DNA from: Sphingomicrobium flavum
Lineage (GTDB): Bacteria > Pseudomonadota > Alphaproteobacteria > Sphingomonadales > Sphingomonadaceae
Direction of reading: 5' to 3'
Length of the DNA stretch: 64,000 nucleotides
Assembly (NCBI RefSeq): GCF_024721605.1
Contig: NZ_CP102630.1
Span: forward strand, 124,001 to 188,000
Below the pieces are notes generated by a model. That model had not been told where the DNA came from, ran no database searches, and was given only the letters and a program-made list of their open reading frames with translations. Shown piece after piece: positions 44,718 to 63,406 of this stretch. A program made the position numbers and the translations under genes. Position 1 is the stretch's first letter. Every line of letters starts with the position of its first letter.

Positions 44718-44818
44718 GGCGGCCCCCTCACTGGCGCCCTTGATGCGCCAATTTGTTAACCCAGACTAGAAATGTTTGTGGCTTCGTGCAATTCAAGAGC
44801 GGCTTATTGGGGGAACAG

Positions 44819-46696: not shown

Positions 46697-46705
46697 GATC
46701 AGACG

Positions 46706-47566
46706 TCAGCTGAAGAGTTCGTCGCGCTTGCGCATCTCGTGGGTCAGGCGGACATGCCCGACGCGCAGTTCGGAGCCGACGGGCAGCGTGGTGGGCCCGT
46801 CGATCCGATCATCGTCGACATAGGTGCCGTTGGTCGAGCTGAGGTCGGTCACCTCGAGCGCTTCGCCCCTGATGATGATCTGGCAATGGCTGCGCGAGAC
46901 GCGGGGGTCGGACAGCACGATGTCGGCGGGCTTGCTGCGCCCGATCTTCACGCCGAGCGGGCCGATGACGTGCTGGCGCGGGGCGCCTTCGCCTTCGGCC
47001 ATGTGCAGGACATGCAATTCCTGATCGTCATAAGCACCTGACGAGGCCGAGGTGAAGAATTGGGTCGCCTCGATCGCTTCGTCGCGGTTCGTGGTGGGCG
47101 CCGGCGCCGCAGCCTCGACCTGCCTCTCGCCATGCCGGCGCAGGGTCGGCGGAGTGAAGGGCTGCGGTTCCCTGCCCAGATGATGCGCGATGTCGGCCAT
47201 CAGCTGCTTCCAGGCCGGATCGGCGCGATCGCCGGACCAGCCCGACAGGTTGGTATTGTGGGTGAGTTCGAAGGCGATGGGCAGTTCGCACGGTTCGATG
47301 ATCGCAGGCACCAGCTTCTGGCGGCGATCGCCCTGCGTCGCTTCGGCGCGCACCCAGCGCGAGCCGACCGAGCTTGGCGACCAGAGCACGAGCACCACGC
47401 GCGCGGCGCGCAAATTGCGTTCGATCACTTCATCGAAGGTTTCGCCCGAATGGATCGCGGCATCCCACCAGACGCTATAGCCTTCATGTTCGAGCGCGAA
47501 GGCGACCCGCGCGGCGGCCTCGCGGTCGTCGCGGCTATAGGACAGGAAAATGTCGGGTCCTTCCAC
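46706..47566 (-). CDS. TIR-FHA fusion protein
   Basis: 286 residues. TIR domain 1-130: DIFLSYSRDD (strand A), GYSVWWDAAIHSGETF, VVLVLWSPSSVGSRWVRAE with E75 at the position of the catalytic Glu of NAD-cleaving TIR proteins. Linker 131-195 contains EAIEATQFFTSASS with Thr/Ser that could be kinase targets. FHA domain 197-280: GRSKPAD (from 209), SRSHCQI and STNGTYV (244-250), the phosphothreonine pocket. FHA domains bind phospho-Thr made by kinases such as the adjacent one; the set can be read as kinase-phosphatase-effector. NADase activity is not shown, only compatible. Confidence 0.88.
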   Translation of the reverse strand: MEGPDIFLSYSRDDREAAARVAFALEHEGYSVWWDAAIHSGETFDEVIERNLRAARVVLVLWSPSSVGSRWVRAEATQGDRRQKLVPAIIEPCELPIAFELTHNTNLSGWSGDRADPAWKQLMADIAHHLGREPQPFTPPTLRRHGERQVEAAAPAPTTNRDEAIEATQFFTSASSGAYDDQELHVLHMAEGEGAPRQHVIGPLGVKIGRSKPADIVLSDPRVSRSHCQIIIRGEALEVTDLSSTNGTYVDDDRIDGPTTLPVGSELRVGHVRLTHEMRKRDELFS

Positions 47567-47683: not shown

Positions 47684-49192
47684 TCAATCGCTATTCTTGA
47701 CCCGCAACATGGCCAGCGCGGCCAGCACCAGCGTCGCCGCGGCGAAGGCCATGGTATAGATCGGCTGGCCGGGGAAGAAGATCTTCATGATCGTGCCCAT
47801 CACCGTCGCCACCAGCAATTGCGGGACGACGATGAAGACGTTGAACAGCCCCATATAGATGCCCAGTTTTCGCTGCGGCAGGTTGGAGGCGAGGATGGCA
47901 TAGGGCATGGCCAGGATCGAGGCCCAGGCGATGCCGATGCCGATTTCCGAAATGATCAGCATTTCGGGATCCTTGATAAGGAAGAAGCTGGCATAGCCGG
48001 CGGCCCCGCACAGCAGCCCGACGATATGGGTCTTCACCTTGCCGATGCGCTTGGCCAGCAGCGGCAGCAGCGCCAGTGCGGCGATGGCGGCGACACCGTT
48101 ATAGACGGCGAACAGGATGCCGACCCAGTTGCCCGCTTCCTGATAGGCAGCGCTGGAGGGATCGCCCGAGCCGTAAAAATTGATGGCCACGACCGGGGTG
48201 GTGTTGATCCACATGATGAACAGGGCCGACCAGGAGAAGAATTGCGCCAGCGCGAGCTTCTTCATGATGTCGGGCATGCCCGAAAAGTCGCCGACGATCT
48301 GGCTGAGCATGTTGGACGAGGTGCCGCCCTTGGCGAGGCGGATCGCCACCATCGAGGCCAGGCCATAGGCAGCCAGGAGCGCGCCGAGCAGATAGACTTC
48401 CTTTTCCAGCCCGAAATAGCCGACGGAGGCGGCGACGATGGCGCCGGCCAGGATCCAGACCATCGCACCGTCATAATCGCGTGCGGCAAGCGCCCGGATG
48501 GTCTGCCCGGTCGGCGCCGTTTCCTCGCCTTCGCCGGCGAATTTGGCCATCTGCTCAGGGCTATATTCGTCGGTGGCGACCACCGTCCACATCACCGCCA
48601 GGAACAAGGCCGCCGCGCCGAACCAGAAGCTGTAGCGCACGGTATCGGGAATGCTGCCATCGACCGAGGTGTTGGCGACGCCCCAGGCATCGAGCAGATA
48701 GGGAAAGATCGACCCGACCACGGCGCCGACGCCGATAAAGGCGGTCTGCACTGCATAGCCGGCAGTGTGCTGGTCCTTGCGCAGCATGTCGCCGACAAAG
48801 GCGCGGAACGGCTCCATCGAGATGTTGAGCGAGGCGTCGAGCACCCACAACAGCACTGCGGCCATGATCAGCCCGTCGGCCAGGAAGCTGTTCGACAGGG
48901 GCATCAGGAAGAGCGAGATGGCGGCCAGGATCGCACCGGCAAGGAAATAGGGGCGGCGGCGGCCGAGGCGGCCGAGCCAGGTGCGATCGGACATGTAACC
49001 GATGATGGGCTGGACGAGCAGGCCGGTCAGCGGCGCCGCAACCCACAGCGCGGGAAGGTCATCGAGCGAGGAGCCCAGCGTCTGGAAGATTCGGCTCATA
49101 TTGGCGTTTTGCAGGGCAAAGCCGATCTGGATGCCGAAAAAACCGAAGCTGATATTGAACAGCCCGGCCCAGCTCTGGCGTGGTTTCTCCAT
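47684..49192 (-). CDS. MFS sugar permease (maltose/sucrose type, SLC45-like)
   Basis: 502 residues from the ATG at 49192 (GGGGGA upstream); a TTG at 49198 is less likely. About twelve membrane spans; the conserved loops GYMSDRTWLGRLGRRRPY (between TM2 and TM3) and GQPIYTMAF near the end fit the SLC45/MalY-like permease group. Likely moves maltose or maltodextrin-derived sugar from periplasm to cytosol using the proton gradient, paired with the TonB receptor for outer-membrane entry. Same strand as, and downstream of, the LacI gene with a copy of the putative operator in front. Confidence 0.85.
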   Translation of the reverse strand: MEKPRQSWAGLFNISFGFFGIQIGFALQNANMSRIFQTLGSSLDDLPALWVAAPLTGLLVQPIIGYMSDRTWLGRLGRRRPYFLAGAILAAISLFLMPLSNSFLADGLIMAAVLLWVLDASLNISMEPFRAFVGDMLRKDQHTAGYAVQTAFIGVGAVVGSIFPYLLDAWGVANTSVDGSIPDTVRYSFWFGAAALFLAVMWTVVATDEYSPEQMAKFAGEGEETAPTGQTIRALAARDYDGAMVWILAGAIVAASVGYFGLEKEVYLLGALLAAYGLASMVAIRLAKGGTSSNMLSQIVGDFSGMPDIMKKLALAQFFSWSALFIMWINTTPVVAINFYGSGDPSSAAYQEAGNWVGILFAVYNGVAAIAALALLPLLAKRIGKVKTHIVGLLCGAAGYASFFLIKDPEMLIISEIGIGIAWASILAMPYAILASNLPQRKLGIYMGLFNVFIVVPQLLVATVMGTIMKIFFPGQPIYTMAFAAATLVLAALAMLRVKNSD

Positions 49193-49261
49193 CGTCAATT
49201 CCCCCGAATGTCTCCTGTGGGAAGGAGGCTGGCAGGGAAAAGCGCTGCTGACAATTCTGTA

Positions 49262-49289: not shown

Positions 49290-50303
49290 TCAGCTCGACT
49301 TGCGCTCGATCAGTTCGACGGGGAGGAGGACGCTGTCGGGGGCCCGCTCCTCGATCTTGGCGAGCAGGGTGTCGACCAGCGTTTCGGCGGCGCGGCGGGT
49401 ATCCTGCGCGACGCTGGTGAGCGAGGGATCGGACAGGCGCGCGGCAGCCAGGTCGTCGAAGCCGACGATGGCGACATCTTCGGGAATGTCGAGCCCCTGC
49501 TTCTTCAGATAGCGCATGGCGCCGAGCGCGGCGAAATCGGAGGAAGCGAAGATGGCGTCGAAGCGATGCCGCTGGGTCATGAGCTTTTGCGCTGCCGCTT
49601 CGCCCTCCTCCTGGGTCGGGTGCGCGTCGATGCGCGCCACCGCTTCCAGCCCCGCTTCATCCAGCGCCCGCGAGAAGCCGCGGTAGCGCTTCAGCAATTC
49701 GGGCGCGGTATCGTCGGCGGTGCCGATGAAGGCGATCTTGGTTCGCCCGCGTTCCACCAGATGCTTGCCCGCCAGATAGCCACCTTCTTCATTGTCCGAC
49801 CCGACCGTGGTGCCGATCTGGTCGTCGAGCGCGGCGCCCCAGCGCACGAAATGGGTGCCCTGGCGCACGAGCTGTTCCAGCCGCGGCTTGGCCTTGAGAT
49901 AGTCGCCATAGCCCAGAAGGATGATGCCGTCGGCCTTGCGGCTGTCTTCATAGTCCACATGCCAGTCGGCCGAGAGCTGCTGGAAACTGATGAGAAGGTC
50001 GTAGCCCGCTGCGGCGCAGGCACGGGTCAGCGCGCCGACCATCGAGAGGTAGAAGGGGTTGATCAGCGTATCGTCGGGCGTGGGATCCTCGAAGAAAAGC
50101 AGGGCGATCGTGTTGGACTGGCCTTTTCGCAACATCGAGGCGTTGCGATCGACCGCATAGTTGAGCTCCTTGGCCGCGGCGAGGACCTTGGCGCGCGTAT
50201 CTTCCGAGACCGCCGGATTGCCCGAAAGCGCCCGCGAAACAGTGGGCTGGGACACCCCGGCAAGGGCCGCGATATCGAAGCTGGTAGGACGGCGCTGGGC
50301 CAT
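49290..50303 (-). CDS. LacI family transcriptional regulator (maltodextrin locus)
   Basis: 337 residues from the ATG at 50303. N-terminal HTH at about 8-27 (TSFDIAALAGVSQPTVSRAL, the LacI/GalR signature), hinge helix (AKVLAAAKELNYAVDRNAS), then a periplasmic-binding-like effector domain (NPFYLSMVGALTRAC, GSDNEEGGYLAGKHL, IVGFDDLAAARLSDP). Likely represses the permease gene and the receptor/enzyme operon, with sugar release. Located between the permease and the receptor, divergent from the latter. Confidence 0.92.
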   Translation of the reverse strand: MAQRRPTSFDIAALAGVSQPTVSRALSGNPAVSEDTRAKVLAAAKELNYAVDRNASMLRKGQSNTIALLFFEDPTPDDTLINPFYLSMVGALTRACAAAGYDLLISFQQLSADWHVDYEDSRKADGIILLGYGDYLKAKPRLEQLVRQGTHFVRWGAALDDQIGTTVGSDNEEGGYLAGKHLVERGRTKIAFIGTADDTAPELLKRYRGFSRALDEAGLEAVARIDAHPTQEEGEAAAQKLMTQRHRFDAIFASSDFAALGAMRYLKKQGLDIPEDVAIVGFDDLAAARLSDPSLTSVAQDTRRAAETLVDTLLAKIEERAPDSVLLPVELIERKSS

Positions 50304-50354
50304 GAAAAGCGTCGTGTCCAATCCGTTGCATCACTGCCACGATCGTGGCGTGAA

Positions 50355-50388: not shown

Positions 50389-50492
50389 CGCCCCCGCGCT
50401 ACTGACTTTGCGCGACCTTTCCATCAGTCTGTCATCGATCCGACATCTGGGGGCCAAGCCGGATGTGGGCACATATCTCTGGAGGGGTACAC

Positions 50493-53333
50493 ATGAAAAA
50501 AGTTGGTTTGCACACGCGCATGACGTCGACGTCGAGCGCGGTCGCTATGGGTTTTGTGCTGGCGATGGCCGGCGCGACGCCCGCTTTTGCGCAGGACGCG
50601 CAGGACGAACCGAATGCCGAGGGCAATCCCAATGTGGATTCGAACGATCCCGGCCAGCCCGAAGGCGATGAAGCCATCGTCATCACCGGCTTCCGCGCCT
50701 CGCTCGAAAGCGCCGTCGGCACCAAGAAGGACCAGGACCTTGTCGTCGAATCGATCAGCGCCGAAGATATCGGCAAGCTGCCCGATGCCTCGATCGGTGA
50801 ATCGATCGCGCGCCTTCCCGGCGTGACCTCGCAGCGCCTCAACGGCCGCTCCAACGTCATCGCCATCCGCGGCTTTGGCCCCGACTTCTCGACCACGCTT
50901 CTGAACGGCCGTGAACAGACTTCGACCAGCGACAATCGCGGCGTTGAGTTCGACCAGTATCCCTCGGAAATCGTCAGCCAGGTCGTGATCTACAAGGCGC
51001 CGTCCGCCGATCTCGTCGGGGCCGGCCTTGTCGGCACGGTCGACATTCGCACCGTGCGCCCGCTCGATTACGGCAAGAGCGTCCTCGCCATCGGCGCGCG
51101 TGGCAGCTATGCCGATATCGGCGCACTCAACTCGGACTCGACCGATCTTGGCTGGCGCGCCAACGCCACCTTCATCGACCAGTTTGCCGATGACACGGTG
51201 GGCGTGAGCCTGGCCGTCGCCTATCTGGACGAGCCCTACCACAACGAGGAATTCAACGCCTGGGGCTATCAGGACGGGTTCAGCTTCTTCGCCGACGATC
51301 CGCGCGGCAACTCGCTGCTGGCCGGCGGCTCCAAGAGCTTCGTGACCTCGACCGGGCTCAAGCGCCTCGGCATCAACGGCACCGTGCAGGTCGCCGCTAG
51401 CGATGACATCATGGTCACCGTCGACGGCTTCTATTCCAACTTCGACGATGACCAGGTGAAGCGCGGCATCGAACTGCCGATCGCGGGCTGGTTCGGCACC
51501 ACGGGTGACCTCAGCACCTATACCGTGACCGACGGCTTCTACACCGAAGGCGTGCTGGAAAACGTCCAGGGCGTGGTCCGCAACGATATCTTCAACCGCC
51601 AGGCCGATCTCTATTCGGGCGGCATTAACCTGGCCTGGGATCCGGGCAATGGCTGGAAGGGCTTCCTCGACTTTGGCTATTCGCGCACCGACCGCGATGA
51701 ATTGTCGATCGAAAGCTATTCGGGCACCGGGTTCAACTGGGACAATCCCTTCAACGGCGATGATGATTTTGCTGCGGCGGACGTCACCGACACGATCGCT
51801 TTCCAGCTGACGCCGTCCGGCCTCTTCTTCAACCCGACGCTCGATTATTCGGACCCCAACCTCATCGTCCTGACCGATCCGCTCGGCTGGGGCGGTGGCG
51901 GCCGTACGCAGGCGGGCTACTATAACAATCGCATCGTCGAGGACGAGCTCAAGCAGTATCGCGCCGAGCTCGAAAGGGAGCTCAACCACGACTTCTTCGG
52001 AGGCCTGAAATTCGGCGTCTCCTATGTCGATCGCGACAAGTCGCTGACCCCGGACGAATTCTTCCTCGAGCTTGGGCAGGATGGTCTCGGCAATCCGATC
52101 CGCGAAGTGACGATCCCGTCGCAATATCTGCTCGAAGAAACCAATCTGGCCTATCTCGGCCTCGGCCCGATCGTGACCTATGATCCGCGCGACCTCATCC
52201 GTGACGGCGTGCTGGTTCGTACGACCAACGATTCGAACGATATTCCGGCCAAGGCCTTCACCATCAGCGAAGACATCATCTCGGCCTATATCCAGGCCGA
52301 TATCGACGCCGACCTTGGTGACGTGGTCCTGACGGGTAATGTCGGTGCGCAGATGGTGTGGACCGATCAGTCCTCGGGCGGCATCGCCTTCCCGGGCGGC
52401 ACCCGTGTCGAGGTGGAAGCGGGCGACGAATATGCCCACTTGCTGCCGAGCCTGAACCTCAATGCGCGCCTGCCGGGCGATTATGTCGTCCGTTTCTCGG
52501 CGCGCCGTGAGATCATGCGTCCGCGCCTTGACGACCTGCGTGTCGCCATCGGCTATAACGTGGTCCAGAATGGCGACTTTGAAGATCTGTATGGTGGCTT
52601 CTACCTCGATGGCGGCGGCGGCAACCCGTCGCTGCGGCCCTATGCTGCCAACTCGGTCGACCTGACCTTCGAGAAATATTTCGGATCGTCGGGCTACATC
52701 GCGCTGCAGGCCTTCTACAAGGATATCGACGATTATATCGCCGACAGCATCCTGTTCGATTTCGACTATAGCGACTTCCCGCTTCCGGCAGGACCCAGCC
52801 CGGTCACCACCACGGGTATCCTGCGCTCGAAGGAAAGCACCGCCAAGGGCGAGCTGTACGGCGTCGAACTGGCCGGTACCCTGCCGTTCGATGTGATCAC
52901 GCCGGCGCTCGAAGGCTTCGGCATCACGGGCGGTGTCAGCTATACCGAGAACGAGATCAGCGGCACGGTCAATGGCGACAGTCGCATCCCGGGCTATTCG
53001 AAGTGGGTAGCCAACGGCACGGCCTATTTCGAGAAGTATGGCTTCAATGCGCGTGCCAGTGTGCGTCATCGCACCGGCTTCTTCGGCGACTTCACGGGCT
53101 TTGGCGGTTCGCCGACCCGCAAGAGCGCGCTGGAAGAAACCATCGTCGATGCGCAGATCGGCTACGACTTCCAGGAAGGCTCCTTCCTCGAAGGCCTGTC
53201 GCTCTATCTGCAGGGCCAGAATCTGACGGACGAGCGTTTCGCCTCGGTCGCCAATCCTGACCAGCCACTGTCGGTCACCGACTATCAGATCTATGGTCGC
53301 CGCTTCCTGGCGGGCTTCACCTACAAGTTCTGA
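50493..53333 (+). CDS. TonB-dependent outer-membrane receptor, probable maltodextrin uptake
   Basis: 946 residues from the ATG at 50493 (GGAGGGG 6-8 bases upstream). Signal peptide ending at TPAFAQ (33/34); an N-terminal TonB-box-like EAIVITGFR (around 57-66); plug domain with LPDASIGESIARLPGVTSQ and GFGPDF, LLNGREQ; a large beta-barrel ending in aromatic residues at the C-terminus (RRFLAGFTYKF). The plug start and overall length match the large receptors used for oligosaccharides in sphingomonads and Caulobacter (MalA type). The downstream GH13/GH97 genes give the substrate call. Followed by a strong hairpin before the enzyme genes. Confidence 0.93.
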   Translation: MKKVGLHTRMTSTSSAVAMGFVLAMAGATPAFAQDAQDEPNAEGNPNVDSNDPGQPEGDEAIVITGFRASLESAVGTKKDQDLVVESISAEDIGKLPDASIGESIARLPGVTSQRLNGRSNVIAIRGFGPDFSTTLLNGREQTSTSDNRGVEFDQYPSEIVSQVVIYKAPSADLVGAGLVGTVDIRTVRPLDYGKSVLAIGARGSYADIGALNSDSTDLGWRANATFIDQFADDTVGVSLAVAYLDEPYHNEEFNAWGYQDGFSFFADDPRGNSLLAGGSKSFVTSTGLKRLGINGTVQVAASDDIMVTVDGFYSNFDDDQVKRGIELPIAGWFGTTGDLSTYTVTDGFYTEGVLENVQGVVRNDIFNRQADLYSGGINLAWDPGNGWKGFLDFGYSRTDRDELSIESYSGTGFNWDNPFNGDDDFAAADVTDTIAFQLTPSGLFFNPTLDYSDPNLIVLTDPLGWGGGGRTQAGYYNNRIVEDELKQYRAELERELNHDFFGGLKFGVSYVDRDKSLTPDEFFLELGQDGLGNPIREVTIPSQYLLEETNLAYLGLGPIVTYDPRDLIRDGVLVRTTNDSNDIPAKAFTISEDIISAYIQADIDADLGDVVLTGNVGAQMVWTDQSSGGIAFPGGTRVEVEAGDEYAHLLPSLNLNARLPGDYVVRFSARREIMRPRLDDLRVAIGYNVVQNGDFEDLYGGFYLDGGGGNPSLRPYAANSVDLTFEKYFGSSGYIALQAFYKDIDDYIADSILFDFDYSDFPLPAGPSPVTTTGILRSKESTAKGELYGVELAGTLPFDVITPALEGFGITGGVSYTENEISGTVNGDSRIPGYSKWVANGTAYFEKYGFNARASVRHRTGFFGDFTGFGGSPTRKSALEETIVDAQIGYDFQEGSFLEGLSLYLQGQNLTDERFASVANPDQPLSVTDYQIYGRRFLAGFTYKF

Positions 53334-53409: not shown

Positions 53410-54918
53410 ATGAGCGAGGACCGGAAAACACCAGTGCGCGTGGTCATTGCCGGCGGCGGGACCGCTGGCTGGATCGCGGCCGCGACCCTGCTCAAGACGC
53501 TTGGGCGGGCGGTGACGGTCACCCTGGTGGAATCCGAAGCGATCGGCACGGTCGGGGTCGGCGAAGCCACCATCCCGCAAATCCAGCATCTCAACCGCAT
53601 CCTCGAAATCGACGAGGCGGCGTTCCTCAAGGCGACGAGCGGATCGATCAAGCTGGGGATCGAATTTGTCGGCTGGGATCGTCCCGAAGAAAATTACATG
53701 CACGCCTTCGGCATTGCCGGCCGCGCAGTCGGGGTCGCTCCCTTCCGCCATGCCTGGCGTCGCGGGGTCGAGCTTGGCAATCAGCGCCCCTTTGGCGCCT
53801 ATCATTTCAATGAAGCGGCGGCGCGCGCGCTGCGCTATCATCCGCAGGCCGGCGGGGGTGCGATCCCGCACCTCGTCCACGCCTATCATTTCGATGCCGG
53901 ACTATACGCCAAGATGCTGCGCGGCCATGCCGAGCAGGCCGGTGCGACGCGCATCGAAGGCAAGATTGCCAGCGTCGAACGCGATGGCGAGCATGGCGAT
54001 GTCACAGCGCTGGTGCTGGAAGACGGGCAGCGGGTCGAGGGCGGCTTCTTCATCGACTGCACCGGTTTTCGCGCGCTGCTGATCGGCGACGCGCTGGGCG
54101 TCGGTTATGAAGACTGGTCGCATTGGCTGCCCTGCAACCGCGCCTGGGCAGTGCCGTGCGCGCGCGGCGGCCCGTTTCGCCCTTACACCCAGTCCATTGC
54201 CCACAAGGCCGGCTGGCAATGGCGTATCCCGCTGCAGCATCGCACCGGCAATGGCCATGTCTTCTGCGCCGACTTCATCGGTGATGACGAGGCGCGCGAC
54301 ATCCTGATGGGCAATCTGGAAGGCCGGGCCGAGGCCGAACCCCGCCTGATCAAGTTCACCACCGGGCGGCGGGACCAGGCCTGGTCGCACAATGTGCTGG
54401 CGCTGGGGCTTTCGGGCGGCTTCATGGAGCCGCTGGAATCGACCAGCATCCACCTTATCCAGTCAGGCGTCGAACGCCTGCTCAAGCTGTTCCCCGATGG
54501 GGGCGACATTGCGCTACGCCGCGACAAATATAACCAGCTCACCCGCTTCGAATGGGAGCGCATCCGCGACTTCCTGATCGGCCACTACAAATATAACCGC
54601 CGCGAGGGCGAGCCCTTCTGGGATGCCTGCCGCGCGATGGACGTGCCCGACACGCTGCTGGAAAAGCAGGCATTGTTCGAGGAATCGGGCGCCATCCACC
54701 GCGAGGGCGAGGAATTGTTCACCGAGGAAGGCTGGCAGCAGCTGTTCCTTGGCCAGGGCATCATGCCCGAAAGCTGGCACGCCACGGTCGATCCGATCCG
54801 CGAGGACGAACTGATGAAACTGCTCGACCTCATTGCCGACGCTTATGCGGCACGCGCGCAAAAGCTGCCCACCCATGAAGACTATATCGCCCATATTTCG
54901 GGCAAGGAGGCCGCATGA
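53410..54918 (+). CDS. Flavin-dependent tryptophan-halogenase-like protein 1
   Basis: 502 residues. FAD loop GGGTAGW (15-21), VGVGEATIPQI (48-58), catalytic-type Lys K81 in SIKLGIEF, the halogenase signature GWQWRIP (268-274, W-x-W-x-I-P) and the MEPLESTSIHLIQSG segment with the conserved Glu. These match flavin-dependent halogenases; those found beside TonB receptors have unknown natural substrates. Stop overlaps the amylase start by 4 bases. First gene of the enzyme operon; its link to sugar use is unexplained. Confidence 0.85.
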   Translation: MSEDRKTPVRVVIAGGGTAGWIAAATLLKTLGRAVTVTLVESEAIGTVGVGEATIPQIQHLNRILEIDEAAFLKATSGSIKLGIEFVGWDRPEENYMHAFGIAGRAVGVAPFRHAWRRGVELGNQRPFGAYHFNEAAARALRYHPQAGGGAIPHLVHAYHFDAGLYAKMLRGHAEQAGATRIEGKIASVERDGEHGDVTALVLEDGQRVEGGFFIDCTGFRALLIGDALGVGYEDWSHWLPCNRAWAVPCARGGPFRPYTQSIAHKAGWQWRIPLQHRTGNGHVFCADFIGDDEARDILMGNLEGRAEAEPRLIKFTTGRRDQAWSHNVLALGLSGGFMEPLESTSIHLIQSGVERLLKLFPDGGDIALRRDKYNQLTRFEWERIRDFLIGHYKYNRREGEPFWDACRAMDVPDTLLEKQALFEESGAIHREGEELFTEEGWQQLFLGQGIMPESWHATVDPIREDELMKLLDLIADAYAARAQKLPTHEDYIAHISGKEAA

Positions 54919-56708
54919 CGTTAAGCCTGTTGATCGCCGCGAGCATGGGGCTGTCGCAGCCCGTCGATGCCGATGTGCTGGCCGCCCTGCGTTCGCGCCC
55001 GCCCGAAGATGAGGTGGTCTATTTCGTGCTGCCCGACCGCTTCGACAATGGCGATCCCAGCAACGATCGCGGCGGCATTGCGGGCGGCCGGCTCGACCAT
55101 GGTTTCGATCCCACCCACAAGGGCTTTTTCAATGGCGGCGACCTCAAGGGCCTGACCAACCGCCTCGATTATCTTCAGGAAATGGGCATCACCGCCATCT
55201 GGTTCGCGCCCGTCTTCAAGAATAAGCCGGTGCAGGGCGGCCCGGGCCGGGAAAGCGCGGGTTATCACGGCTATTGGGTAACAGACTTCACCTCGATCGA
55301 CCCGCATTTCGGGACCAATGAGGAATTCAAGGCCTTCGTCGATGCCGCCCATGGGCGCGGGATGAAGGTCTATATGGACATCATCACCAACCATACTGCC
55401 GACGTGATCGGTTATTCCAACGGCGACTATAGCTACCGTTCCAAGGCCGATTATCCGTACTGGACGCGCGGCGGCACCGATGGCGAACCCATCAATGAGG
55501 GGTTCGAGGGCGACCATGTGATGACGGTCGAGAATTTCGCCAAGCTGACCAACCCCAATTTCGCCTATGAGGTGAAGGTGCCCGAGGCGGAAAAGGACGT
55601 GAAGGTCCCAGCCTGGCTCAACGATCCCATTTATTATCACAATCGCGGAGACACGACCTTCTTCGGCGAAGATTCCACCTATGGCGACTTTGTCGGGCTC
55701 GACGATCTTTTCACCGAGAACCCGCTGGTCGTGGGCGGGATGATCGAGATTTATGGCGACTGGATCGAGAAGTTCGGCATCGATGGCTTCCGCATCGATA
55801 CCGCCAAGCATGTGAACCCCGAATTCTGGCGCCAGTTCGTGCCCGCCATGCTGGCCCGCGCGGAGGCGGCCGGTATCCCCAATTTCCATATTTTTGGCGA
55901 GGTAACGCAGGATACGTCCAACCCCGGCTATCTGGCCATGTTCACCCAGCGTGACGGATATCCGGCGCTGCTCGATTTCGCCTTCCAATGGGCAACGCTC
56001 GAACTGCTCGGCATGGACGAGGGCACCTACAAGATGGCCGACATGTTCGAGATGGACGCGCTATACCGCGGCGGTCATGAAGCAGCACGCACGCTGCCGA
56101 CCTTCCTTGGCAATCATGATCGCGGGCGCTTTTCCACGCTGATCAAGGAGCGCAAGCCCGATATCGGCCAGGAAGAGCTGCTCCAGCGCGTCCTGCTCGG
56201 CCATGCGATGATGATGACACTGCGCGGTTCGCCGGTCATCTATTATGGTGATGAGCAGGGCTTTGTCGGCGATGGCAATGACCAGCTGGCGCGCGAGAAT
56301 ATGTTCCCGAGCCAGGTCGATGTCTACAATGACAATGACCTGATCGGCACCGACGCGACCACGGCACAAGAAAATTTCGACCGCAACCACCCCATCTATC
56401 GCGAGCTGGCGATGCTGGCCAAGATGCGCGCCGACAATCCGGCGCTCTCGCGTGGTCGGCAGCTGACGCGCGCTTATGGCAAGGAGCCCGGCCTGTTGGC
56501 CATTTCGCGCTTCCACCCGGACACGGGCAAGGAGACGCTGCTGCTCTTCAACACCTCGATGGAGGCGATCAGCGGGCAGGTCGAAGTCAATCCCCATTCG
56601 AGCCGTTTCTCCCCGCTGGCCGGCCAGTGCAGCCCGCAGATCAGCGCGCGCGGCAGCCTGTCCTATGCGCTGGCGCCGCTATCCTATGCCGTCTGCGAGG
56701 CGCAATGA
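54915..56708 (+). CDS. Secreted GH13 alpha-amylase
   Basis: 597 residues. Short N-terminal signal-like segment (LSLLIAASMGLSQPVDA). (beta/alpha)8 catalytic core: DIITNHTAD (region I), GFRIDTAKH with nucleophile D295, FGEVTQ with acid/base E329 and FLGNHDRGRF with D402. A short C-terminal beta domain follows. Predicted to cut starch or maltodextrin in the periplasm or outside. Start overlaps halogenase 1 (ATGA), stop overlaps the next GH13 gene by 4 bases, so the four enzymes are translationally coupled. Confidence 0.93.
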   Translation: MTLSLLIAASMGLSQPVDADVLAALRSRPPEDEVVYFVLPDRFDNGDPSNDRGGIAGGRLDHGFDPTHKGFFNGGDLKGLTNRLDYLQEMGITAIWFAPVFKNKPVQGGPGRESAGYHGYWVTDFTSIDPHFGTNEEFKAFVDAAHGRGMKVYMDIITNHTADVIGYSNGDYSYRSKADYPYWTRGGTDGEPINEGFEGDHVMTVENFAKLTNPNFAYEVKVPEAEKDVKVPAWLNDPIYYHNRGDTTFFGEDSTYGDFVGLDDLFTENPLVVGGMIEIYGDWIEKFGIDGFRIDTAKHVNPEFWRQFVPAMLARAEAAGIPNFHIFGEVTQDTSNPGYLAMFTQRDGYPALLDFAFQWATLELLGMDEGTYKMADMFEMDALYRGGHEAARTLPTFLGNHDRGRFSTLIKERKPDIGQEELLQRVLLGHAMMMTLRGSPVIYYGDEQGFVGDGNDQLARENMFPSQVDVYNDNDLIGTDATTAQENFDRNHPIYRELAMLAKMRADNPALSRGRQLTRAYGKEPGLLAISRFHPDTGKETLLLFNTSMEAISGQVEVNPHSSRFSPLAGQCSPQISARGSLSYALAPLSYAVCEAQ

Positions 56709-58387
56709 GCCTGGATAAACTGATCAAGACCGGTCGCCAGCTGGCGGAGGAAGGCAAGGCGAAAGCCGCTGTCGACCTGGCGCCGCGCGCGATGGAGCAG
56801 GACGACCAGCCCTGGTGGAAGGGCGCGGTCATCTACCAGATCTATCCGCGCAGCTATGCCGACAGCAATGATGACGGCATTGGCGATTTGCCGGGCATTA
56901 CCCAGCAGCTCGACCATATTGCGCGCCTCGGCGCCGATGCGATCTGGATTTCGCCTTTCTACACCTCGCCCATGCTCGATTTCGGCTATGACGTGGCCGA
57001 ATTTCGCAATGTCGATCCCATCTTCGGCACGCTGGAGGATTTCGACACGCTGGTCGCCAAGGCGCATGGGCTGGGGCTCAAGGTCATCATCGACCAGGTC
57101 TGGTCGCACAGCTCGGACCAGCATCGCTGGTTCAGCGAAAGCCGCCAGAGCCGCGACAATGACAAATCCGACTGGTATGTCTGGGCCGATCCCAAGCCCG
57201 ACGGGACGCCGCCCAACAATTGGCAGTCCATCTTCGGCGGCCCGGCCTGGACGTGGGACAGCCGCCGCGGCCAATATTATTTCCACAATTTCCTCAAACA
57301 GCAGCCCGACCTCAACCTGCATTCGCAGGCGGTGCAGGACGAGATCGTCAAGATTGCGCGCTTCTGGCTCGATCGCGGGGTCGACGGTTTCCGTATCGAT
57401 GCGGTGCTGCACATGTTCCATGACGCCGCACTGACCGACAATCCGCCCGCCAGCGATCCAAACAAGTTCAAGGCGCGCAGCCATGACTTCCAGGACAATA
57501 TCCACAACCAGGGCGGGCCCGGCACCTTCCGGTTCGTCAAGCGCCTGCGCGAGGTGATGAACGAATATGGCGCCATCTTCTCGGTCGCTGAAGTCGGCGG
57601 GGCGGGCACGCATGCCTTTCAGCAGAAGCTGACCGACGGCGAGAAAAAGCTGAACAGCGTCTATGGCTTCGAATTCCTTTACGCCAAGGAACTGACCCCG
57701 GGCGTGGTGTGCGAGGCGCTGGCCCGCTGGCCCGGCGAGGATGGCGAAGGCTGGCCGACCTGGGCGTTTGAAAATCACGATGCGCCGCGCGCGGTGTCGC
57801 GCTGGGCGACGCCCGCCAATGCCGACGCCTTCAACCGCTTGAAGCTGCTGCTCTTCATGTGCCTGCGCGGCAATGTGATCCTCTACCAGGGTGAGGAATT
57901 GGGGCTGACCCAGGTCGATATTCCTTTTGAGAAATTGCAGGATCCGGAAGCCATCGCCAACTGGCCGCTGACGCTGTCGCGCGACGGGGTGCGTACCCCC
58001 ATGCCGTGGGAAAAGGATGCGGCGTTCGCCGGCTTTTCCAGCGCCGAACCCTGGCTTCCGATCGGTCCCGACCATCCCGCCATGGCGGTGGGCGAACAGG
58101 ACGGGGTCGATGGTTCGCTGCTCGAATGGGCGCGCCAGGCGGTGGCGATGCGCAAGGCTGAGCCCGCCTTGCTCTATGGCCAGCTTGAACATTGCACGCC
58201 GGGCGAGACGATCCTGACCTTCGAGCGTGTCCATGATGGCGAGCGCCTGTTGTGCGTCTTCAATATCTCGGACCATGAGAGCGCCTTCACGCTGCCCCAA
58301 GGCGCCAAGATCATCCTGTCCTGCGGCCAGGTGGCGGAGGGAAAGCTGGGCCCGCTGACCGCTTTCGTCGCCAAATTGTCGGAGTAG
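56705..58387 (+). CDS. GH13 alpha-glucosidase (oligo-1,6/1,4-glucosidase type)
   Basis: 560 residues from the ATG at 56705 in an ATGA overlap. No signal peptide is evident, so it is probably cytosolic. Starts with a charged 35-residue extension before WWKGAVIYQIYPRSY. Catalytic residues: nucleophile D232 in GFRIDAV, acid/base E296 in VAEVGG, D359 in ENHDAPR. The sequence DVAEFRNVDPIFGT is typical of alpha-glucosidases that release glucose from maltose and short maltodextrins. Next gene starts 2 bases after its stop. Confidence 0.92.
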   Translation: MSLDKLIKTGRQLAEEGKAKAAVDLAPRAMEQDDQPWWKGAVIYQIYPRSYADSNDDGIGDLPGITQQLDHIARLGADAIWISPFYTSPMLDFGYDVAEFRNVDPIFGTLEDFDTLVAKAHGLGLKVIIDQVWSHSSDQHRWFSESRQSRDNDKSDWYVWADPKPDGTPPNNWQSIFGGPAWTWDSRRGQYYFHNFLKQQPDLNLHSQAVQDEIVKIARFWLDRGVDGFRIDAVLHMFHDAALTDNPPASDPNKFKARSHDFQDNIHNQGGPGTFRFVKRLREVMNEYGAIFSVAEVGGAGTHAFQQKLTDGEKKLNSVYGFEFLYAKELTPGVVCEALARWPGEDGEGWPTWAFENHDAPRAVSRWATPANADAFNRLKLLLFMCLRGNVILYQGEELGLTQVDIPFEKLQDPEAIANWPLTLSRDGVRTPMPWEKDAAFAGFSSAEPWLPIGPDHPAMAVGEQDGVDGSLLEWARQAVAMRKAEPALLYGQLEHCTPGETILTFERVHDGERLLCVFNISDHESAFTLPQGAKIILSCGQVAEGKLGPLTAFVAKLSE

Positions 58388-58389
58388 CC

Positions 58390-60417
58390 ATGCGCCTTCT
58401 TGTCCTGCTTGCCAGCCTGCTGCTGGCCTTCCCCGCCTTGGCACAGGACGTTCGCACGGAGAGCATCGCATCGCCCGACGGGCGGATCGTCCTGACCGTC
58501 GGCGAAGGCAATGAGAATCCCCATTATCGGATCGATCGCGATGGCAAGGCGGTGCTGGAGGCGAGCGCGCTGGGCTTCCTGATGGCCGACCAGGAAAAAC
58601 TGGCGCGGCGGTTGAAGATCGTTGGCGCCAGCCGATCGAGCCATGACGCGACATGGGAGCAGCCTTGGGGCGAGCGCCGCTTCGTGCACGACCATCACCA
58701 GGAAATGACCGTCCGTTTCGAGGAGGATAGCGATGCCAGGCGGCGCTTTGCCGTCACCTTCCGGATCTTCGATGACGGGGTCGGCTTTCGCTATGTCTTC
58801 GACGATGCCTCGATGGGCGAGACAGTGCGCATCGCCGAGGAACTGACCGAATTCAACCTGGCAGAGGATGGCACCGCCTGGTGGATCCCCGCGGGCGAAT
58901 GGAACCGCTACGAATATCTTTATGAAGAAACCCCGATCAGCGGGGTCTCGATGGTCCACACGCCCTTCACCGCGCGGATGGCAGGCGGCACCCATGTCGC
59001 CATCCATGAGGCGGCGCTGGTCGACTTTGCCGGCATGTGGCTCAAGCGCACGACCGGGACCAAATTCCGCGCCACGCTGGCCCCCACCGGCTCGGGCGGT
59101 GCGCGCGCGGTGCGCGACGCGCCCTTCGCAACGCCGTGGCGCACCATTCGCATCAGCGATACTGCCGCAGGCCTTGCGATGAGCGACATCGAGCTCAATC
59201 TGAACGAACCCAACAAGCTGGCCGACATTGGCGACTGGTTTACCCCGCACAAATATGTCGGGGTCTGGTGGTCACTGCACCTCGATGAGGAAAGCTGGGG
59301 TTCGGGCGAAAAGCATGGCGCGACGACGCCAAATGTGAAGCGCTATATCGACTTTGCCGCCGAACATGGCTTTGCGGGCGTACTGGTCGAAGGCTGGAAC
59401 CTGGGTTGGGACGGCAATTGGTTCTTCAACGGCAGCCTGTTCAGCTTCACCGAGGCCTATCCCGCCTATGATTTCGAGGAACTGGCCCGCTACGCAGCAG
59501 AGAAGGGCGTCTCGATCGTCGGCCATCATGAAACCTCGGGCGATGTCGGCAATTATGAAGCCCAGCTGGAATCCGCGCTCGACCTCATGGCGGCGCGCGG
59601 GGTCAAGGCGATCAAGACCGGCTATGTCACCGATGCCTGCGACCTTCGCTATGTCCATCCTGACGGGCGCGAGACGCGCGAATGCACCGAGAGCCAGGTG
59701 ATGCAGCGCCATCATCTGAAAGTCGTGACCGAAGCCGCCAAGCGCCAGATCGCGATCAACCCGCACGAGCCGGTCAAGGATACCGGGCTGCGCCGTACCT
59801 ATCCCAACTGGGTGGCACGCGAAGGCGCACGCGGCATGGAATTCAACGCCTGGGGCAACCCGCCCAACGGGCCGGGCCATGTGCCGACGATGGTCTTCAC
59901 CCGCATGCTGTCGGGGCCGATGGACTATACGCCCGGCATCCTCAGCCTCGAGGGGCGCGGGCAGCCGCTGCAGATGACGATGGCGCGCGCGATGGCCGAA
60001 TATGTCGTCATCTACTCGCCCATCCAGATGGTCGCCGACCTGCCCGAACATTATGCCGAGCATCCTGAACCCTTCCAATTCATCAAGGACGTGCCAACCG
60101 ACTGGAGCGAGAGCCGCGTGCTCGAGGCCGCGGTCGGGCGCTATGTCATTACCGCGCGCAAGGATCGCGGCAGCGAGGACTGGTATCTGGGCGGGGCGAC
60201 CGACGAAGAAGGCAATAATGCCAAGGTCGCGCTTGATTTCCTCGATGCCGGCCGCTCCTATGTAGCCCAAATCTATCGCGACGGACCCACGGCCCATTAT
60301 CTGGGCGAGACCCGTTTCGACATCGTCATCGAGGAGCGTGAAGTGACCGCCGCCGACATGTTGGAAATGCGCATGGCGCCGGGCGGCGGGTTCGCGGTCC
60401 GCTTCATCGCGCAATGA
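58390..60417 (+). CDS. Secreted GH97 alpha-glucoside hydrolase (SusB-like)
   Basis: 675 residues with a signal peptide ending at FPALAQ. N-terminal beta-domain, (beta/alpha)8 barrel from about 280, C-terminal beta-domain. GH97 motifs present: GHHETSGDVGNYE and INPHEPVKDTGLRRTYPN, the latter holding the Glu expected in the inverting subgroup. That favours an alpha-glucosidase over the retaining alpha-galactosidases of the family, which use Asp. Probably periplasmic, trimming maltodextrin to glucose. Stop overlaps halogenase 2 by 4 bases. Confidence 0.9.
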   Translation: MRLLVLLASLLLAFPALAQDVRTESIASPDGRIVLTVGEGNENPHYRIDRDGKAVLEASALGFLMADQEKLARRLKIVGASRSSHDATWEQPWGERRFVHDHHQEMTVRFEEDSDARRRFAVTFRIFDDGVGFRYVFDDASMGETVRIAEELTEFNLAEDGTAWWIPAGEWNRYEYLYEETPISGVSMVHTPFTARMAGGTHVAIHEAALVDFAGMWLKRTTGTKFRATLAPTGSGGARAVRDAPFATPWRTIRISDTAAGLAMSDIELNLNEPNKLADIGDWFTPHKYVGVWWSLHLDEESWGSGEKHGATTPNVKRYIDFAAEHGFAGVLVEGWNLGWDGNWFFNGSLFSFTEAYPAYDFEELARYAAEKGVSIVGHHETSGDVGNYEAQLESALDLMAARGVKAIKTGYVTDACDLRYVHPDGRETRECTESQVMQRHHLKVVTEAAKRQIAINPHEPVKDTGLRRTYPNWVAREGARGMEFNAWGNPPNGPGHVPTMVFTRMLSGPMDYTPGILSLEGRGQPLQMTMARAMAEYVVIYSPIQMVADLPEHYAEHPEPFQFIKDVPTDWSESRVLEAAVGRYVITARKDRGSEDWYLGGATDEEGNNAKVALDFLDAGRSYVAQIYRDGPTAHYLGETRFDIVIEEREVTAADMLEMRMAPGGGFAVRFIAQ

Positions 60418-61919
60418 CCGTTGCGCCCGCCTCCATCACCATCCTTGGCGGTGGCACGGCGGGCTGGATGGCGGCCTGCCTGCTGCAACAGGCATGGGGC
60501 GAGCGCACGACCGTCCGCCTGATTGAATCGAGCCAGATCGGCATCGTCGGGGTGGGCGAGGGGTCGACCCCGCAGATGAAGGCCTTCTTCGACAGGCTGG
60601 GCGTCAGCGAGGCGGAGTGGATGCCGCGCTGCAACGCCACCTACAAGGTCGGGATCGAATTTGAAGGCTGGTCGAGCCGGCCGGGCCATGAGCGCTATTT
60701 CCATCCCTTCCCGACCGCGCTGGACGGGCATAGCGCGCCGCAATTCTTCCGCGCCGCGCGGCAGAAGAGGCATGGCGTCGATGTCGAGGCGCATCCCGAT
60801 GCCTTTTTGCTGCCGGGGCTGATGGCGCGGCGCAAACTGGCGCCGATCAGCCCCGAACACTTCCCGTTCGAGGTCAGCTATGGCTATCATTTCGATGCCC
60901 ACCTGGTCGGCCAATATCTGAAGGAATTGGCGACCGGGTGGGGGGTCGAATGGCTCGACACCAAAGTCGCCAGCGTCGAGATCGAGGCGGGCAGGGTTGC
61001 CGCGCTTGTCGGTGAGGATGGCGCGCGGCACGCGGCCGACTTCTTCATCGATGCATCGGGCTTTCGCGCGATGATTATCGAACAGGCGCTGGGCGGCGAG
61101 CATCTGTCCTTTGCCGACAATCTGTGGGCCGACAGCGCGGTGGTGCTGCCGAGCGGGGTTGCCGATGGCGGGCCCGAATGCGCGACCCGCGCCATCGCCA
61201 TGTCGGCGGGCTGGCGCTGGTCGATCCCGCTGACCAACCGCACGGGCAATGGCTATGTCTATGCCTCCAGCTATCTGGGGGCCGAGGAGGCCGAGGCCGA
61301 ATTGCGCGCGGCGCTGGGGTTGGGCGACGAGGTCGAGGCACGGCATCTCAAGATGCGTTGCGGGCGGATGACGGACAGCTGGGCATCCAATTGCCTGGCG
61401 ATCGGGCTGGCGCAGGGCTTTCTCGAGCCGCTCGAGGCGACCGCGCTGCATATCGTGCTTGCCACTGTGGAAGGCTTCATCGCGACGGTTGATCGTGAGG
61501 GGATAAGCGATGATGCGCGCAGCGGCTTCAATCAGGACATCGGTGCGCGCTATGAGGGCATTCGCGACTATATCGTCGCCCATTATCGCTGCCAGCTGCG
61601 CCGCGATACGCAATATTGGCGCGATTGCGCACAAAATGACGCGCTGTCGCCCAGCCTGAAGGGCGTGATCACCAGTTGGTTCACCAAGCAGGACCTGCAG
61701 GCGGAAATCCAGAACCAGCAGATTGCGCGCTATTACAATGCGGTCAGCTGGCACTGCCTCTTGGCGGGCTATGGCAATTTCCCGCCCGAGGCGCAGCTCA
61801 GCGCGCCGGGCGAGGAGATGGGCGTCGCCGACATGGCGAGGATCCATGCCTTCCTTGAAGGTTGCGCGATGAACTTTCCGTCGCATTCGGACGCTTTGGC
61901 ATTGCTGAAGGACGGATGA
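60414..61919 (+). CDS. Flavin-dependent tryptophan-halogenase-like protein 2
   Basis: 501 residues, starting in an ATGA overlap with the GH97 gene. FAD loop GGGTAGW (12-18), VGVGEGSTPQM (46-56), Lys K78 in ATYKVGIEF, signature GWRWSIP, and LEPLEATALHIV with the conserved Glu. Similar length to halogenase 1 but clearly divergent in sequence (for example GEGSTPQM versus GEATIPQI), so the pair is not a recent duplication. Substrate unknown. It is separated by 65 bases from zwf. Confidence 0.85.
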   Translation: MTVAPASITILGGGTAGWMAACLLQQAWGERTTVRLIESSQIGIVGVGEGSTPQMKAFFDRLGVSEAEWMPRCNATYKVGIEFEGWSSRPGHERYFHPFPTALDGHSAPQFFRAARQKRHGVDVEAHPDAFLLPGLMARRKLAPISPEHFPFEVSYGYHFDAHLVGQYLKELATGWGVEWLDTKVASVEIEAGRVAALVGEDGARHAADFFIDASGFRAMIIEQALGGEHLSFADNLWADSAVVLPSGVADGGPECATRAIAMSAGWRWSIPLTNRTGNGYVYASSYLGAEEAEAELRAALGLGDEVEARHLKMRCGRMTDSWASNCLAIGLAQGFLEPLEATALHIVLATVEGFIATVDREGISDDARSGFNQDIGARYEGIRDYIVAHYRCQLRRDTQYWRDCAQNDALSPSLKGVITSWFTKQDLQAEIQNQQIARYYNAVSWHCLLAGYGNFPPEAQLSAPGEEMGVADMARIHAFLEGCAMNFPSHSDALALLKDG

Positions 61920-61984: not shown

Positions 61985-63406
61985 ATGAGCAAGAGATCTT
62001 CAACATTGCTGTTGTTCGGGGCGACGGGCGATCTGTCCAAGCGCATGCTGCTGCCCTCGCTCTACGGGCTGGCCGCCGACGGGTTGCTGCCCGACGACAT
62101 CCAGGTCGTCGCAACGGCGCGCAGTGCGTTGAGCGACGCGGAATTTCGCGACCTGGCGATGGAGAGCCTGCGCAAACATCTGCCCGCCGATTTCTTCTCA
62201 GAAGAGACCGCGCTGCGCTTTGCCAAGCGGGTGCGCTACATCCCCGTCGATGTGACGACGCCCGAGGGCTTCGACCAGTTGGCTGAGGCGATCGATATCG
62301 AAAAGGGCGTCAGCATCTTCCTGTCGACCGCGCCTTCGCTGTTCAAGGCGACGATCGAGAATCTCGAGCGCGTGGGGCTCGCCGGGCCCGATGTGCATAT
62401 GGCGCTGGAAAAGCCCATCGGCACCGATCTCGCGACCAGCGCCGAAATCAACGACGCCGTCGCTGCCGCCTTCCCCGAAGACCGGATTTTCCGCATCGAC
62501 CATTATCTGGGCAAGGAAACCGTCCAGAATTTGCTGGCGATGCGCTTTGCCAATTCGCTGCTGGAGCCGGTGTGGAATGCGGCGCATATCGACCATGTCC
62601 AGATTACCGTTGCGGAAACGGTGGGGCTCGAAGGGCGCGCGTCTTATTATGATGGCGCGGGCGCGGTGCGTGACATGTTGCAAAACCATATGCTGCAATT
62701 GCTGGCCTTGGTCGCGATGGAGCCGCCCGCCGATTATGCCCCGACCGCGGTGCGCGAGGAAAAGGTCAAGGTGCTGCGCTCGCTCCGCCCGATGGCGGCG
62801 GACAGCGTGAAGGACGAAGTCGTGCTCGGCCAATATGACGCCTATGAGGGCGAGCTGGGCGAGAAGAGCGACACCGAAACCTTTGTCGCGCTGAAGGCGC
62901 ATGTCGACAATTGGCGCTGGGCCGGCGTGCCCTTCTACCTTCGCCACGGCAAGAAACTGGCGCGGCGCAAGACCGAGATCTACATCCAGTTCAAATGCGT
63001 GCCCCATTCGATCTTCGGCAAGGGCGCGACGACCGAACCCAATGAGCTGATCATCTCCATCCAGCCCGAAGAGAATATCCGGTTGAAAATGATGGCCAAA
63101 ACCCCAGGTCTGGATCGCGGCGGCATCCGCCTGCGCGAAGTGCCGCTGGATGTGACGATGGAAGGCGCCTTTGCCGATTATCGTCGCCGCATCGCTTATG
63201 AGCGGCTGCTGCTCGACCTCATCGAGGGTGACCAGACGCTGTTCGTGCGCCGCGACGAGGTGGAGGCGCAGTGGGAATGGATTGACGGGCTTCGCGCAGC
63301 ATGGAAGGCCGCCGGCATGACCCCGGATCGCTATGACAGTGACAGCTGGGGCCCGGACAAATCGAACGAGTTCGCCATGCGCGACGGAAGGGAATGGAAT
63401 GATTGA
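61985..63406 (+). CDS. zwf: Glucose-6-phosphate 1-dehydrogenase
   Basis: 473 residues; GCGAGG about 5-7 bases before the ATG. NADP loop LFGATGDLSKRMLLPSL, active-site RIDHYLGKETVQNL with the catalytic His/Lys, and LRHGKKLARR near the C-terminal half. It oxidises glucose 6-phosphate to 6-phosphogluconolactone. Downstream of the sugar hydrolase genes and overlapping pgl by 8 bases, so it links glucose released by them to the Entner-Doudoroff route, the usual sphingomonad pathway (inference). The kinase and edd/eda steps probably follow beyond the window. Confidence 0.95.
   Translation: MSKRSSTLLLFGATGDLSKRMLLPSLYGLAADGLLPDDIQVVATARSALSDAEFRDLAMESLRKHLPADFFSEETALRFAKRVRYIPVDVTTPEGFDQLAEAIDIEKGVSIFLSTAPSLFKATIENLERVGLAGPDVHMALEKPIGTDLATSAEINDAVAAAFPEDRIFRIDHYLGKETVQNLLAMRFANSLLEPVWNAAHIDHVQITVAETVGLEGRASYYDGAGAVRDMLQNHMLQLLALVAMEPPADYAPTAVREEKVKVLRSLRPMAADSVKDEVVLGQYDAYEGELGEKSDTETFVALKAHVDNWRWAGVPFYLRHGKKLARRKTEIYIQFKCVPHSIFGKGATTEPNELIISIQPEENIRLKMMAKTPGLDRGGIRLREVPLDVTMEGAFADYRRRIAYERLLLDLIEGDQTLFVRRDEVEAQWEWIDGLRAAWKAAGMTPDRYDSDSWGPDKSNEFAMRDGREWND

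Follow-up and report, generated by a model that had tools for sequence, protein, structure and literature searches.

The 64,000 bp stretch of Sphingomicrobium flavum analysed here (assembly GCF_024721605.1, contig NZ_CP102630.1, positions 124,001 to 188,000), referred to as the window, contains a sugar locus in which two flavin-dependent halogenase (FDH) genes, FDH1 and FDH2, accompany a TonB-dependent receptor (TBDR). The occurrence of halogenase genes next to receptors of this kind has been noted before. The most fitting description of the system is that of a TonB-dependent sugar receptor with its own dedicated halogenase. A major facilitator superfamily (MFS) transporter and a LacI-family regulator are on the minus strand; the TBDR, FDH1, two glycoside hydrolase (GH) family 13 genes, GH97 and FDH2 are packed on the plus strand, followed by zwf. 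The features are as follows.

47684..49198, minus strand: MFS sugar transporter, the divergent arm of the locus (PF07690, 73 bits; PF13347, 44 bits)
49290..50321, minus strand: LacI-family regulator (PF00356 and PF13377)
50463..53333, plus strand: TBDR of the TIGR01782 class (527 bits, cut-off 310; PF07715 plug), with ATG at 50493 as a possible true start; proposed partner of the FDHs and possibly their substrate
51888..51890, plus strand: codon of TBDR Trp476, a candidate modification site only (context TDPLGWGGGG; numbering from 50463)
53410..54918, plus strand: FDH1, PF04820 (579.5 bits); nearest solved structures 9luq, 6y1w (Xcc4156) and 6frl (BrvH)
54915..56708, plus strand: GH13 of alpha-amylase type, GH13a (PF00128, 225.5 bits); ATGA overlap with FDH1
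56705..58387, plus strand: GH13 of alpha-glucosidase type, GH13b (PF00128, 398 bits, scanned from 56702); ATGA overlap with GH13a
58390..60417, plus strand: GH97 (PF10566, 317 bits, plus GH97_N and GH97_C)
60414..61919, plus strand: FDH2, PF04820 (406 bits); 34% identity to FDH1
61985..63406, plus strand: zwf, glucose-6-phosphate dehydrogenase (TIGR00871, 516 bits), starting 65 bases past FDH2

The first-pass annotation of this DNA described two flavin halogenase-like genes bracketing starch enzymes, and this description stands, both genes being intact members of PF04820. It also held that each is translationally coupled to a glycoside hydrolase gene. The 4-base ATGA overlaps of FDH1 with GH13a and of GH97 with FDH2 bear this out, however the coupling is not specific to the FDHs. 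Since GH13a and GH13b overlap in the same manner, and the gap between GH13b and GH97 is only 2 bases, it should be seen as a property of the whole five-gene run. The TBDR stop codon is 76 bases from the start of FDH1. In loci fetched from other genomes (see below) the FDH-to-GH13 gap (n = 47) and the GH97-to-FDH gap (n = 16) both have a median of -4, with individual values being rough, as open reading frame starts were set mechanically. By eye, signal-like N termini are present in the TBDR, the first GH13 and GH97, and none were seen in FDH1, FDH2 or the second GH13. Promoter-like and terminator-like sites occur no more often than in shuffled sequence. From its genes alone (TIGR01782 receptor, two GH13, GH97, MFS and LacI) the locus has the make-up of a maltodextrin carbohydrate utilization (CUT) locus.

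Both FDHs far exceed the PF04820 cut-off of 21 bits. Alignment to solved halogenases shows that each retains GGGTAGW, the catalytic Lys (K81 in FDH1), the H/F pair, WxWxIP and the Glu of EPLE[SA]T (E343 in FDH1). The GxGxxG, WxWxIP, Lys and Glu set of PF04820 halogenases is thus complete in both, in agreement with the FAD loop and active-site residues first reported for them. The Ser beside the Glu in FDH1 (ESTS) is replaced by Ala in FDH2 (EATA), a form common to the 11 members of the FDH2 branch. It is likely that FDH1 and FDH2 perform halogenase-type chemistry. It is improbable that they act instead, without halogenating, as redox enzymes or flavin monooxygenases that might hydroxylate a protein or a small substrate. 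PF04820 has flavin monooxygenases such as QhpG among its kin, fresh water is often bromide-poor, and oxygenase-like genes are present in some FDH loci, all of which would suit a non-halogenating enzyme; however 108 of the 117 FDHs that were aligned retain the halogenase Lys and Glu, and the Lys83Ala variant of BrvH is reported to be inactive.

The remaining nine sequences in this survey are one fragment without the Lys part and eight degenerate FDH-like proteins, seven having lost both Lys and Glu and one the Lys. Every degenerate gene immediately follows an intact FDH gene, which would suit the retention of these copies as catalytically dead partner subunits. They are found in loci L056, L020, L040, L042, L062, L076, L032 and L017. 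Three long FDH frames were considered as fusions and rejected, as by eye they resemble upstream extension of the frame. On plasmids, 91 PLSDB records match FDH1, all below 60% identity.

The closest solved chains differ between the two proteins. FDH1 scores 520 bits to 9luq, 471 to 6y1w and 411 to 6frl, with PrnA at 253 bits in an alignment that ends near residue 420, short of the C-terminal part. The best scores of FDH2 are to 6nsd (299 bits) and 8fov (297 bits), ahead of 9luq (255), 6frl (253) and 6y1w (247). FDH1 is therefore nearer in sequence to Xcc4156 and BrvH than to the tryptophan halogenases, whereas FDH2 is not. In halogenases of free tryptophan, as described in PMC7336383, the loop that binds the substrate is long and is located in region 1 for the Trp-5 group and in region 2 for the RebH group. 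The region-1 loop has 42 residues in both FDH1 and FDH2, compared with 38-44 in Xcc4156, 9luq and BrvH and 58 in the tryptophan 5-halogenase 8fov, and the long loop of the Trp-5 group is absent from both. The region-2 loop is 37 residues in FDH1, the same as in Xcc4156, and 43 in FDH2, among measured chains that did not include one of the RebH group. Because the region-1 loop is short in both, and the nearest characterised relatives of FDH1 lack activity on free tryptophan, the sequences support a substrate other than free tryptophan for FDH1 and FDH2, as was suggested in the first-pass annotation.

The association with receptors was assessed in 59 genomes of the family. PF04820 matches were found in 43 of these at E 0.001, and in 40 over the cut-off. 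TIGR01782, searched in 58 of the 59, identified at least 225 receptors over its cut-off in 50 of the 58; as scoring in large genomes covered the first 23 or 28 candidates, 225 is a lower bound, mainly for FDH-free receptors. Strong FDHs were defined as matches above 370 bits (n = 115), excluding weaker matches and fragments. A TIGR01782 receptor lies within 6 kb of 83 of these 115 and within 12 kb of 97. By hand calculation, receptors with 6 kb flanks make up about 2% of these genomes, therefore only 2-3 of the 115 would be expected this close by chance. From the receptor side, 61 have an FDH within 6 kb, at least 161 have none within 15 kb, and 3 are intermediate. The FDHs form 83 clusters, from which 80 regions were fetched, the window's own and two weak-fragment clusters being excluded. 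When these 80 loci are combined with the window, a receptor gene is found no more than 5 kb from 94 of the 116 full-length FDH genes, and no more than 10 kb from 108.

The same is seen within the 2.34 Mb genome of the window, which has three PF04820 genes. The third, at 665964-667337, is divergently oriented to the genome's one further TIGR01782 receptor above the cut-off. Only 2 of the 16 plug-domain receptors of this genome exceed that cut-off, and all three FDHs are in those two loci. Across the family loci and those of more distant relatives, 119 receptor-FDH pairs are separated by no more than 3 kb. In 86 of these the FDH is downstream on the same strand, with a median gap of 84 bases (77 of the 86 at 300 bases or fewer); in 25 the two genes are on opposite strands, and in 8 the FDH is upstream. 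These data make it very likely that FDHs are partners of a set of related TIGR01782 TBDRs.

This pairing extends beyond the family. The best 80 of at least 568 confirmed relatives of FDH1 come from alpha-, beta- and gammaproteobacteria. Receptor profiles match in the loci of 71 of these 80, and in 58 an intact FDH immediately follows a receptor on the same strand. The nearest relative among the matches listed is from Sphingomicrobium lutaoense, with 79% identity to FDH1 and an identical gene order. A run of TBDR-FDH-SapC-Cupin_8-FDH is found in L205, L224, L230 and L238, which are from Alteromonas (two), Parvularculaceae and Ferrimonas. In L229 (a Lysobacteraceae record) this run is cut at the receptor end by the end of the contig, and in L219 (Microbulbifer) the first FDH is absent, leaving TBDR-SapC-Cupin_8-FDH. 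In the sampled loci, the six best relatives of Xcc4156 (57-68% identity) all belong to receptor loci or SapC-Cupin_8 runs, with four in runs of SapC-Cupin_8-FDH; the six best of 9luq (57-60%) are each directly after a receptor, and the six best of BrvH (48-52%) are in receptor loci or SapC-Cupin_8 runs. The BrvH and Xcc4156 genes themselves were not found in any sampled genome. The active-site residues are intact, the pairing is repeated in three proteobacterial classes, and the layout is operon-like.

The distribution of FDHs among receptors was placed on a tree of 130 receptors, 59 FDH-adjacent and 71 FDH-free, the latter chosen with a per-genome limit from at least 161. Receptors shorter than 800 aa or with odd letters were excluded; the tree (FastTree, 740 columns, midpoint-rooted) is approximate. 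The FDH-neighbour label changes 6 times on this tree, compared with at least 32 (mean 43) in 500 shuffles. The FDH-linked groups are one of 11/11 (support 0.993), one of 22/22 (0.989), an alpha-glucan group of 23/24, and three scattered receptors (2/2 and 1/3). With midpoint rooting, the FDH-linked groups are interspersed with several FDH-free lineages.

Neighbouring genes were compared using family profiles derived from FDH-bearing loci, with only cluster representatives annotated in FDH-free loci, so the latter may contain families for which there is no profile. Within 8 kb of the 59 FDH-adjacent receptors are LacI (35), GH3 (22), GH13 (20), GH97 (17), Cupin_8 (14), GH16 (9), SapC (6), DUF6445 (5), GH31 (5), GH43 (4) and GH10 (3). 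Over the same distance the 71 FDH-free receptors have one each of GH13, GH97, GH16 and GH31, nine GH43 and 13 LacI, and no GH3, Cupin_8, SapC or DUF6445 by these profiles. Clusters typical of FDH-free loci, named from their representatives, are (FDH-free versus other loci) a phytase 9/0, a GntR-type regulator 9/1, a short-chain dehydrogenase 18/2, a TRAP transporter part 5/0, a PhoD phosphatase 5/0 and chondroitinase-B-like lyases 4/0 each. Alginate lyase, altronate dehydratase, PhoX, SurE, melibiase and SSF occur in single FDH-free loci. FDH-linked receptors adjoin GH13/97, GH3/16, GH31 or GH10/43, and some FDH-free ones adjoin alginate, uronate or phytate genes. The FDH goes with glucan and xylan receptors, while many FDH-free receptors look built for acidic or phosphorylated substrates, although not all do, and GH43 is found on both sides.

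The FDHs were first tied to starch use, and part of this holds. They are coupled to starch genes in the window, and the suggested co-occurrence with GH97 is present by genome, in 24 of 36 FDH-bearing genomes versus 2 of 23 FDH-free (Fisher p ~1e-5, uncorrected for kinship). An FDH lies within 12 kb of 23 of the 30 GH97 copies. This would fit FDHs that are accessories of the starch enzymes, acting on something specific to alpha-glucan. Such a role is quite unlikely, however, because 12 of the 36 FDH-bearing genomes have no GH97, FDHs also occur in GH3/GH16, GH31 and GH10/GH43 loci, and locus L131 (G001:C4) is a complete LacI-MFS-TBDR-GH13-GH13-GH97 locus in which the FDH places are empty. The genome of L131 has only a marginal PF04820 match, and its receptor branches beside the FDH-linked alpha-glucan group. 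An FDH is thus neither required for a starch locus nor confined to one, and it tracks receptor kinship more than starch use. L131 is also a natural experiment on what the FDH contributes to a starch locus.

Some FDH loci carry oxygenase-like genes. For the Cupin_8 protein of L224 the nearest solved structure is FIH (E 6e-21, residues 164-282), then JMJD5 and JMJD7. FIH, JMJD5 and JMJD7 are protein hydroxylases. DUF6445 (PF20043, listed as of unknown function; L190:4983-5654 and relatives) has an HxD...H...R pattern, and its predicted model (predicted local distance difference test, pLDDT, 94) matches 2-oxoglutarate oxygenases. A 2-oxoglutarate/Fe(II) oxygenase fold is predicted for it with high confidence. 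SapC, Cupin_8 and DUF6445 were also considered as replacements for the FDH at FDH-free TIGR01782 receptors and rejected, as profiles identified none near the first 11, and there were none in 20 Pfam-scanned neighbours nor within 8 kb of the 71.

The most plausible reading is that FDH1 and FDH2 are working cytoplasmic halogenases of a TonB-dependent receptor module, rather than of starch breakdown as such. Their reaction would consume FADH2, O2 and halide, and its likeliest target would be an aromatic side chain in a protein from the same locus, most likely the receptor prior to its export; this modification may tune binding or gating for neutral glucans. The receptor is the best single guess for the substrate, offered tentatively and by analogy. 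We infer that the substrate is a protein and that this protein would be the receptor, with Trp476 as the candidate residue. The short region-1 loop, resembling that of open-site halogenases, and the protein-hydroxylase-like Cupin_8 and other oxygenase-like neighbours favour a protein substrate by analogy only. Weak matches of the FDHs to the protein-modifying flavoenzymes QhpG, LodB and GoxB point the same way. A broader proposal is more speculative and on present evidence somewhat doubtful: that the FDHs, together in some loci with FIH/JMJD5-like Cupin_8, DUF6445 and SapC proteins, chemically edit their cognate TonB-dependent sugar receptor before export, that orphan halogenases, Xcc4156 and BrvH among them, natively serve this purpose, and that the system is widespread.

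A small-molecule substrate is nearly as likely as a protein of the locus. The FDHs may halogenate a small aromatic, such as an indole derivative, a glycan-borne phenolic aglycone or a signal, giving a product for regulation or competition when the locus is on; this too is a tentative reading. PF04820 members of known role mostly make small molecules, and an open site would accept many aromatics. BrvH is reported to brominate free indole and Xcc4156 to take indole derivatives; the indole activity of BrvH is, however, low and its authors doubt that indole is the natural substrate. No natural-product or flavin-reductase family recurs among the annotated representative neighbour clusters. The sole PF01613 flavin reductase found in the window's genome, at G000:C1:2220219-2220653, is far from the FDHs, therefore any FADH2 from that reductase would be supplied in trans. 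There is also no obvious reason for an FDH that makes a small molecule to track receptor kinship.

For modification of the receptor, W476 (TDPLGWGGGG) is the only Trp invariant in all 23 FDH-adjacent alpha-glucan TBDRs. The position is Gly in the FDH-free L131 and is not Trp in the FDH-free L127, L090, L136 and L148. It is a candidate place to look, not evidence of modification. A wider search for receptor residues marking an FDH gave partial markers only. The Trp-Gly dipeptide was tried as a marker and rejected; it is present in 101 of 104 and 13 of 16 FDH-linked receptors versus 39 of 71 FDH-free, tracks receptor kinship and is not proof.

Several results weigh against protein editing by the FDHs. 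W476 is kept in L107, a GH31-adjacent receptor from a genome without a PF04820 match. Conserved sites are changed at 31 of 126 in L131 and at 2 in L107, so the loss of W476 in L131 has weak weight and these two cases say little about the residue. The second FDH-linked receptor group has no Trp in the W476 column, having its own invariant Trp (W534 of L224, 16/16), and at the thresholds used no residue separates FDH-adjacent from FDH-free receptors. Scores to the QhpG NCBIfam model are 36 and 31 bits (cut-off 240), and those to LodB (FDH1) and GoxB (FDH2) are 23 bits each (cut-off 400). A tRNA-modifying relative, presumably TYW5, appears lower in the L224 Cupin_8 search (E 4e-10). For DUF6445, protein hydroxylases and small-molecule oxygenases tie as fold matches: OGFOD1, PHD2 and lysyl hydroxylases are first in VIA-align (Z 13.3-12.8), followed by AsqJ (12.6) and HygX (12.4), whereas Foldseek ranks HygX first. 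The type of substrate can therefore not be read from the fold. The SapC model has a mean pLDDT of 60 and no Foldseek match at E <=0.001, therefore no claim is made on its fold. To our knowledge, no halogenated or hydroxylated receptor has been described.

Mirror-tree comparison likewise gives the FDH no clear excess, with receptor-FDH correlations of 0.71, 0.44 and 0.60 in three sets, and receptor correlations of 0.76 with LacI, 0.54 with GH97 and 0.52 with GH13. A TBDR-FDH correlation not clearly above that of other locus genes could be expected if the FDHs were hitch-hiking passengers in sugar islands, having no role. This is a most unlikely explanation, however, given that FDH has the lowest mean distance of the compared proteins (0.47, 0.44 and 0.45, versus 0.64, 0.53 and 0.56 for the TBDR, in the three sets), that active sites are retained, and that the gene order TBDR-FDH is seen repeatedly, in groups ranging from Sphingomonadales to Alteromonadales.

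Immediately ahead of the sugar locus, at 44004-47566 of the window, is a group of genes whose translations look by eye like a serine/threonine kinase, a PP2C-like phosphatase, and a protein that is TIR-like at its start and FHA-like at its end.

Crystal structures and in vitro activities are available for halogenases such as Xcc4156 and BrvH, for which no native role has been established. The tight link to defined receptor groups indicates where the substrate of such FDHs should be sought. If the receptor is indeed edited, common soil and water bacteria would have a novel form of post-translational control over their nutrient uptake, and the system would be a source of catalysts for protein halogenation.

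A description of the receptor-FDH pairing was not found in the open-licence literature, subscription papers and preprints being outside this scope. By word search there is no TonB or receptor in a 2021 FDH survey (PMC8269204), and no 'halogen' in a TonB-transporter review (PMC11658791) or a marine TonB survey (PMC3400609). Neither TonB nor receptor is used as a word in the main text of the Xcc4156 and BrvH papers, and 'halogen' is absent from that of the CUT-locus paper.

The locus in the window resembles the mal locus of Caulobacter crescentus (MalA) and the Xanthomonas campestris maltose CUT locus, which are reported to share with it a receptor, alpha-glucan enzymes, an inner-membrane transporter and a regulator for maltodextrins. 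The free-tryptophan halogenases PrnA, RebH, PyrH, Thal, 6nsd and 8fov share the fold family, FAD loop, WxWxIP, Lys and Glu with FDH1 and FDH2, and differ in that the region-1 loop of the latter is short, as measured against 8fov. The Caulobacter mal locus presumably has a halogenase gene also. ChlH, MibH and QhpG are relatives able to act on Trp within peptides or proteins, and ChlH and QhpG are reported in terms that provide precedent for halogenation or hydroxylation of such Trp. ChlH and QhpG differ in serving peptide natural-product and quinone-cofactor pathways, and the similarity of QhpG to the FDHs is weak (E 0.00038). The published account of Xcc4156 (PDB 6y1w, Xanthomonas campestris) describes an open site, activity on indole derivatives, inactivity on free tryptophan and an unknown native substrate, for which peptides were suggested. 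That of BrvH (PDB 6frl) describes slow C3 bromination of indole and none of tryptophan, with loss of activity in Lys83Ala. FDH1 shares with these two its motifs and similar region-1 and region-2 loop lengths; FDH2 is of a type further removed from them, having EATA and the longer region-2 loop (43 versus 37).

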